Origin: an uncultured Bacilli bacterium
GTDB lineage: Bacteria > Bacillota_I > Bacilli_A > RF39 > UBA660
Assembly: GCA_947629405.1 (NCBI GenBank)
Contig: CANRDL010000011.1
Location: forward strand, 1-34,983
Direction: 5' to 3'
DNA length: 34,983 nucleotides
A program made the position numbers and the translations under genes. The notes beneath the pieces are model-generated. The model saw only the letters and a list, made by a program, of their open reading frames with translations, ran no database searches and was not told the origin of the DNA. This document shows, in pieces, positions 17,400-18,984 of this stretch. Every line of letters begins with the position of its first letter. The first letter of the stretch is position 1.

Positions 17400-17408
17400 T
17401 TTAAAAAT

Positions 17409-17445
17409 AACTTACGAACTAATTAAAGTTCGTAAGTTTTTATTT
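17409..17445. terminator. Bidirectional terminator after tRNA-His
   Basis: Perfect 12-bp stem AACTTACGAACT / AGTTCGTAAGTT with loop AATTAA; T-rich tails on both sides. Serves tRNA-His (plus) and the PurZ-like gene (minus). Confidence 0.8.
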
Positions 17446-17458
17446 TATATAGCAAAAT

Positions 17459-18538
17459 TTATTTTCTTAAATCTATGATATCACAATCTCTTTCTCCAGT
17501 TCCAATTATTGTAACAGGTGTATTAGTTATATCTTCCACTTTTTTGATAAAATCTTTTACTTTATTTGGTAACTCATCATAATTATTACATCTATATGCT
17601 TTCCAATCAATATACTGAGCAAAATTTAAAACAATTTGTGTAGGTTTATTTATCATTACATTATATTTTAATCTATTCCAATTCATTTCAAAAACGCGTC
17701 TTGTTTTTTTAGTTACAGTTGTATATTCTTTTAAATCAATGTCACTACCACATCTATTTTTTACTTCATTCCAAGTAATTTCTTTACTTCCATCATAATC
17801 TCCACTGTAAATATCTTCACCTATATCTGTTTTATTACTTATTCTAATAGGATATGGTCTTATTACCATAAAGATATCTTTTACTTTAAAAGGACTACAA
17901 CCGGCATCGGCAATTAGTTGACTTGCACTGCACATTCTACTGGTAACATTAGGATAATCAAGTCCATAATTTATATCTAAATCTTGACCTTGAGCACCTT
18001 CAATTAAAATATTATCATTGCATTGATTTATCATCTTTGCTGTATCTGTTATTTCAATAATATTTTTTAAATCTTCGGGAAGTTCTAAAAAATAATCTTT
18101 TGCTAAAATAACATTAGGATTTCTCATAATTTTTTCTGCTTGAGCAGAACCGCATCCCTTAAAAGTTGATCCACTTTTTATTATTCTTTTTTCTTCCTCA
18201 CGATGTTTTTCTAAAATAATCATAGCTCTTGGATGAATATATATTTTTCTATTTCCAATTAAGTTTTTATATTTTCTTATTTCATTAAATAAAATTTCTG
18301 GAGTAATAATACAACCAGCATTTAATACTAATTTACATTTTGGATTTAATATTGCCATAGGTAAGTGACTAACAACAACTTTATCTCCATTATCATCTAC
18401 ATAAGTATGACCAGCATTACTAGACCAGTTATTTGTAGAAAGTGCAAAATAATCATGTTTTGCTAAATAACCACAAATTTTACCTTTTCCACAACTTCCT
18501 GCTTGCCCATCTATAACTATTGTTAAATTTCTATTCAA
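17459..18538 (-). CDS. PurZ-like adenylosuccinate synthetase homologue
   Basis: A 359-aa PurA-superfamily ligase (IMP/dGMP + Asp to a succino-purine nucleotide), clearly shorter than bacterial PurA (~430 aa). The P-loop reads GQAGSCGKGK (11-20): the catalytic Asp of PurA (GDEGKGK) is Ser15. NAGHT (41-45) keeps the catalytic His44. GSTFKG (123-128) replaces GTTGRG, and EGAQGQDLD (180-188) is kept. TTVTKKTRRVF (273-283) replaces the GRRRR loop. LNFAQYID (304-311) stands where PurA has TKLDVLD, so the Asp that reads guanine of GTP is gone. From memory, these match phage PurZ, the 2-aminoadenine (Z) enzyme. The start is TTG 18538 after GGGGGAT, 11 bases past the NUDIX stop, implying coupling. A purine-nucleotide modifying role is inferred. 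It is unlikely to be the housekeeping PurA. Confidence 0.82.
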   Translation of the reverse strand: MNRNLTIVIDGQAGSCGKGKICGYLAKHDYFALSTNNWSSNAGHTYVDDNGDKVVVSHLPMAILNPKCKLVLNAGCIITPEILFNEIRKYKNLIGNRKIYIHPRAMIILEKHREEEKRIIKSGSTFKGCGSAQAEKIMRNPNVILAKDYFLELPEDLKNIIEITDTAKMINQCNDNILIEGAQGQDLDINYGLDYPNVTSRMCSASQLIADAGCSPFKVKDIFMVIRPYPIRISNKTDIGEDIYSGDYDGSKEITWNEVKNRCGSDIDLKEYTTVTKKTRRVFEMNWNRLKYNVMINKPTQIVLNFAQYIDWKAYRCNNYDELPNKVKDFIKKVEDITNTPVTIIGTGERDCDIIDLRK

Positions 18539-18549
18539 ATTAAATCCCC

Positions 18550-18984
18550 CTAATCATAAAATTTTTTTATATTTTCTAAATCTAATATTTCTTTTACAAA
18601 CTGATTTAAATTTGAAAATCCAGCAATTTCTTTATTATCAATATTCATAACAAAATTAATATCTTTCCATTCATAATGTCCCTCTTCATTATCAAGGACA
18701 TTTACCTCATCAACAAAATCATACATGACATTTAATATAGTATTACTATTTATTGTATTGGATTCAGGATATATACATGTTACTAATAATTTTGGATTTG
18801 TTATAACAATATTTGCTTCTTCTATACTTTCTCTTTTGGCAGCATCAAAACATGTTTCATTTTCTTTTATTTTTCCACCGATGCCATTCCAACAATTTTT
18901 ATATGGTTGTCTGTTTCTTTTGACTAACAATACTTTATCGCCGCTTTTATTAAATAACATAATTACTACATAATTTTTATTCAT
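18550..18984 (-). CDS. NUDIX hydrolase (MutT-like)
   Basis: A 144-aa NUDIX pyrophosphohydrolase, usually cleaving a nucleoside triphosphate or other diphosphate-linked nucleotide to the monophosphate. ATG at 18984 follows GGAAGG. The NUDIX box (37-59) begins at GGKIKENE and ends in RESIEEANI, fitting GX5EX7REUXEE except for Asn in place of the last Gly. The upstream VVIMLFNKSGDKVLLVKRNRQPYKNCWNGIGG is typical of MutT/8-oxo-dGTPase-like members. It is the first gene of a two-gene operon with the PurZ-like synthetase. By analogy with phage MazZ, which makes dGMP for PurZ, it could feed dGMP to that enzyme; this is inference. Confidence 0.88.
   Translation of the reverse strand: MNKNYVVIMLFNKSGDKVLLVKRNRQPYKNCWNGIGGKIKENETCFDAAKRESIEEANIVITNPKLLVTCIYPESNTINSNTILNVMYDFVDEVNVLDNEEGHYEWKDINFVMNIDNKEIAGFSNLNQFVKEILDLENIKKFYD

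Follow-up and report, generated by a model that had tools for sequence, protein, structure and literature searches.

A mobile gene pair of a NUDIX hydrolase and a PurZ-like synthetase in uncultured Bacilli

The locus and its two proteins

The window, that is the whole stretch of 34,983 nucleotides analysed, came from an uncultured Bacilli bacterium of the gut whose genome assembly was 1.13 Mb in size and 88.7% complete. Near its middle, on the reverse strand, were two adjoining genes separated by 11 bases:

18550..18984, minus strand: NUDIX hydrolase gene, 144 aa, with an intact Gx5Ex7REx2EE box and WNGIGGK as in MTH1-type enzymes
18545..18551, minus strand: AGGGGGA ribosome-binding site of the PurZ-like gene, read directly from the sequence and overlapping the TAG stop of the NUDIX gene
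17459..18538, minus strand: PurZ-like synthetase gene, 359 aa, TTG start, Ser15 at the position of the catalytic Asp
17404..17437, minus strand: hairpin followed by a T-run, a putative terminator read directly from the sequence

Re-reading the sequence returned the open reading frames, coordinates, 11-bp gap and overlapping ribosome-binding site just as an earlier note on this DNA had them. The hairpin and T-run are probably a terminator common to both genes. The contig was unremarkable chromosomal DNA, with genes for methionine gamma-lyase, an SDR, a Mur ligase, LigD and phosphoglucomutase, and among the neighbours scanned no phage genes were seen around the pair, in agreement with the earlier note. 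An Rfam scan of the window matched tRNAs only and no riboswitch, and riboswitch control of the pair was therefore dropped.

The 359-aa protein matched the Pfam family Adenylsucc_synt with 148 bits. The NCBIfam models for short-form PurA (PRK04293) and PurZ scored 238 and 214.8 bits, each below its own cut-off; as the PurZ cut-off is 300 bits, we call the protein PurZ-like and not PurZ. A PHROGs search matched the PurZ family with one further, marginal match, and the best PDB matches were P. horikoshii PurA and the PurZ of phiVC8 and S-2L. The NUDIX protein matched the Pfam NUDIX family with 42.8 bits and had weak similarity to known structures (best PDB E 9e-7).

Active-site residues were mapped onto S-2L PurZ as described in PMC8342488. 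Ser15, TTVTKKTRRVF and LNFAQYID, on which the earlier note had based its assignment, were present and aligned with S23, the T273-T276 loop and N305/F306/Q308 of S-2L PurZ, respectively; Ser15 was invariant in a 20-row alignment. Residues S23, N49, A50, H52, T132, R146, Q190, R240 and R280 of the phage enzyme were all retained, as were the T273-T276 tip and the N305/F306/Q308 ATP pocket. Position V241, with a proposed role in exclusion of the 2'-OH (PMC8342488), was occupied by a bulkier Ile, and the pocket further differed at Y21 (Ala) and P336 (Glu), two changes that could alter the substrate. The AlphaFold (AF2) model, with a mean pLDDT of 78 and two poorly defined loops, resembled the folds of short PurA and PurZ (Z 26–30), the top Z of 30.0 belonging to the archaeal-type short PurA; its low-confidence parts were the aspartate and phosphate loops. 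Comparison of folds did not tell PurA and PurZ apart.

Relatives, pairing and mobility

A single scan of GTDB genomes returned 27 loci, 26 of which (L034-L059) were bacterial relatives of 73–85% identity, 23 of them full-length; the remaining locus, L060, retained only the tail of the synthetase. In a maximum-likelihood tree, 24 such proteins formed one clade (support 100/100), whose sister was a set of IMG/VR phage proteins of 50–55% identity (98/91). The clade fell on the side of phage PurZ (99/95), apart from the PurA of bacteria and of P. horikoshii, as a sister clade of its own that was not nested within the known phage PurZ clade. This placement was unchanged after removal of two long branches, and an AU test rejected a tree in which the clade was constrained with bacterial PurA (p-AU 0.000113). 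Tree, AU test and pocket residues agree on the PurZ-like identity put forward in the earlier note, and the enzyme class is well supported. The nearest kin outside the bacterial clade were phage contigs (L061, L062, L068, L110, and L111). Codon positions 1+2 differed by 8–18%, far less than fourfold sites (40–57%), indicating purifying selection; with 26 bacterial relatives and an invariant Ser15, this makes a chance observation untenable.

The clade is likely new. A published classification sorted 481 viral PF00709 proteins against at most two prokaryotic sequences per phylum, and its PurZ group included four archaeal sequences and no bacterial ones (PMC12884076). Within the open-access literature searched, PurZ papers dealt with phages only. 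A second PurZ-side group of ~457-aa proteins, with an insert of ~100 residues, was found in this bacterial family as well, in 11 genomes. Six of these proteins (L007-L009, L013, L015, and L090) adjoined a 298-aa Ppx/GppA-like protein, named by eye, and at L010 an MTH1-like NUDIX gene lay ~1.2 kb upstream.

The same NUDIX protein (142–145 aa) was encoded directly upstream of the synthetase in 16 intact loci, the window and 15 others, and it also preceded the broken synthetase copies in L059 and L060. One MAG had two copies, L049 and L051, on separate contigs, and in both of them another kind of NUDIX domain was fused N-terminally to give a protein of 510 aa; this domain carried WF and PDD motifs, which we take to be those of MTH1. 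A third NUDIX type lay 77 bp downstream in L041 and L056, and in L040 just its C-terminal end seems to remain. At L055 the synthetase had no NUDIX partner, in a genome with both purA and purB. The replacement of one NUDIX by another suggests that the activity was needed rather than a particular gene. The coupling on the chromosome that the earlier note described was borne out by conserved pairing, fusion and replacement, and a functional coupling of the PurZ-like enzyme to NUDIX is well supported.

The pair is a mobile two-gene cassette. Five loci (L045, L046, L047, L048, and L050) carried it in a block of ~1.9 kb that was 98.6–99.7% identical and had four different left flanks. The sharp common left edge, TGGAGCGA, was located at L045:7329, L047:2136, L048:7340 and L050:72, and the contig of L046 started at this edge. 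Wrong contig binning cannot account for flank changes within one contig, whereas misassembly could in single cases. In L046 and L048 the block ran on into a Mob-type relaxase region (identified by eye), and several other copies were near serine recombinases. A palindrome-like stretch, GTTCGAACAG, preceded the edge in L035, L038 and L047 and is possibly a recombination site. Truncated copies occurred at L057, L059 and L060, and since the cassette was horizontally spread and sometimes broken, it is considered accessory. A tRNA-His gene adjoined the window copy; a tRNA as insertion site was rejected, most other copies having no adjoining tRNA. In a genome of the same genus (G035), the contig stopped at the spot where an empty site was sought.

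The distribution of the cassette was mobile and patchy, and the genes within a few kb of its copies were mixed, comprising housekeeping genes, recombinases, intron RTs and a relaxase. PADLOC matches near copies were few and partly generic (viperin-like radical SAM, DRT, dCTP deaminase), and a consistent enrichment of defence-type genes beside the copies was not found. In L048 (4963-6931) a radical SAM gene followed by another gene lay just upstream of the pair, and the product of the latter may be the protein that gave a match to the 5-hmdU DNA kinase family (HMUDK_hel).

Purine route and possible function

PurZ products require PurB for the next step, and phages rely on the host's enzyme for it (PMC8342488, PMC12884076). 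In the source genome, at 88.7% completeness, we found no second PF00709 protein, no purB and no lyase of the PF00206 superfamily. MAGs are incomplete; PF00206 lyases, purB included, were not found in 11 of the 17 carrier genomes (the source genome and 10 of 16 others). The superfamily was likewise absent from all 17 other family members tested whose genomes encode PurZ-side proteins, G026 and G150 holding fragments only. Across the whole family sample, purB occurred in 5 of 193 genomes, so that the family mostly lacks the route, and carriers are no exception in this. A canonical PurA without any PF00206 lyase was encoded in seven genomes of the family (loci L020, L022, L024, L025, L026, L028, and L029). 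Among these, L022 had a NUDIX gene 25 bp upstream of purA, while L020 had a YfbR-like HD gene and a nucleosidase as neighbours and L026 a deoxyribosyltransferase-like gene with PnuC (the neighbours at all three loci named by eye).

The earlier note had called for a check for a separate full-length purA and would have taken its absence as the mark of a housekeeping enzyme. No other PF00709 protein was found, but purB is absent too, so the 359-aa protein is not thereby made a housekeeping PurA. The lack of another PurA, of PurB and of any superfamily lyase makes both housekeeping PurA function and finished synthesis of 2-aminoadenine (Z) unlikely.

The reading we prefer, at about an even chance, is a mobile two-gene module acting on the nucleotide pool. 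The NUDIX hydrolase would cleave a purine (d)NTP to the monophosphate; its likeliest substrate, by analogy with MazZ, is (d)GTP, and the product would then be (d)GMP. Judging from its residues, the PurZ-like synthetase would then use ATP or dATP to join Asp to C6 of (d)GMP, dGMP + Asp + ATP being the reaction of the phage type, and would yield N6-succino-2-amino-(d)AMP. Because most hosts lack a fumarase/PurB-superfamily lyase, this compound might be an end product or an irreversible sink, or some further enzyme might process it. The cassette thus probably changes or drains the guanine nucleotide pool, and our favoured guess, from its behaviour, is that altered or drained nucleotides act against phages. 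A wider and more tentative proposal is that succino-purine (deoxy)nucleotides serve as a working product or irreversible dGTP sink without any lyase, made by PurZ-type and even PurA-type synthetases, with mobile NUDIX-PurZ cassettes as one form of this use, e.g., against phages.

The strongest competitor has the same chemistry completed by a lyase of an unrelated family. The seven genomes with canonical PurA and no PF00206 hint at either such an enzyme or lyase-free use, and its action in carriers is possible; however, no conserved neighbour was fit to be the lyase, and we consider this explanation improbable, though less so than those below.

A phage gene carried as cargo, or a prophage remnant without host function, would fit the phage contigs that are the closest outside relatives. 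The earlier note had listed a prophage relic among its options; we do not favour it, given strong purifying selection, an independently mobile cassette with no phage genes seen around it, and a long-lived NUDIX pairing when an adjacent NUDIX gene occurred in none of the phage loci. Cargo without function is accordingly unlikely.

Slightly less likely still is host synthesis of 2-aminoadenine for use in its own DNA or nucleotides, of the kind found in phages S-2L and phiVC8. The PurZ-type residues agree with this, and the phosphohydrolase partner resembles the pairing of MazZ with PurZ (PMC8342488). Removal of the succino group would nevertheless need adenylosuccinate lyase, and the source genome has neither purB nor a PF00206 lyase; a 2-aminoadenine end point without a lyase is unlikely. 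By phmmer, homologues of DatZ, MazZ and DpoZ were not found in the window or near copies L034-L068, which also ruled out a full phage-like Z-cluster near any bacterial copy, and the finished modified purine envisaged in the earlier note is not supported. DNA_pol_A was not found in the eight phage contigs.

A role in a modified-purine metabolite pathway, such as that of a nucleoside antibiotic, is very doubtful. Rhizobium leguminosarum plasmids (L136:5366-12928 and L141) do carry a PurA homologue together with folE, purB, queE, IMP dehydrogenase, nitrile hydratase and queC, a cluster that looks like a toyocamycin/sangivamycin-type 7-deazapurine pathway. Their protein, however, retains the Asp and groups with archaeal PurA, and the PurZ-like locus has no biosynthetic partners or lyase. 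Least probable of all is a housekeeping adenylosuccinate synthetase on the route from IMP to AMP: the protein is the sole PF00709 kind in the source genome and in 9 of 16 other carriers (two copies in G205), but canonical PurA is also present in some carriers, Ser replaces the catalytic Asp, and the tree, the AU test and the lack of PurB to complete AMP led us to discard it.

Comparison with known systems

That a PurZ-like clade exists in bacteria, is mobile, is linked to NUDIX and resides in hosts lacking PurB implies either a use of succino-aminopurine nucleotides beyond Z-DNA or a new lyase. Which of the two holds matters for understanding how Z genomes arose and for nucleotide-based defence. 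Phage PurZ (S-2L, phiVC8, and SH-Ab 15497) shares with the window protein the Ser in place of the catalytic Asp, the TTVTK loop, the N-F-x-Q/N ATP-binding motif, the short form and a phosphohydrolase partner gene. The window protein differs in its ~32–36% identity to these enzymes, its separate clade, its location on a bacterial chromosome and its GSCGK in place of GSTGK; its partner is a NUDIX protein rather than the MazG-fold MazZ, DatZ is missing, and most of the hosts have no PurB. Archaeal-type short PurA (P. horikoshii, 5k7x/2d7u) is alike in length and fold and gave the highest structural Z (30.0), yet it has Asp and a GRRRR loop where the window protein has Ser and TKK, and it lies outside the PurZ-side clade. 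The window NUDIX protein shares the NUDIX box and WNGxGGK with MTH1/MutT-type hydrolases, despite its weak similarity to them (best PDB E 9e-7).

Fusions on Rhizobium and Agrobacterium plasmids (L131:5458-7750, L132:5443-7735, L133, L138, L139, and L140) likewise join a Ser-type PurZ-like domain to a nucleotide enzyme in a mobile context. They differ from the window protein in a P-loop kinase-like N-terminus, a DUF7002 partner encoded downstream of the fusion and a separate lineage. A YfbR-like HD gene lay near these loci, in regions with AbiE, SIR2, AbiJ or UvrD, and they are possibly a plasmid-borne nucleotide module or a defence system. These plasmid fusions lend support to the idea of PurZ-like enzymes serving bacteria in accessory nucleotide modules.
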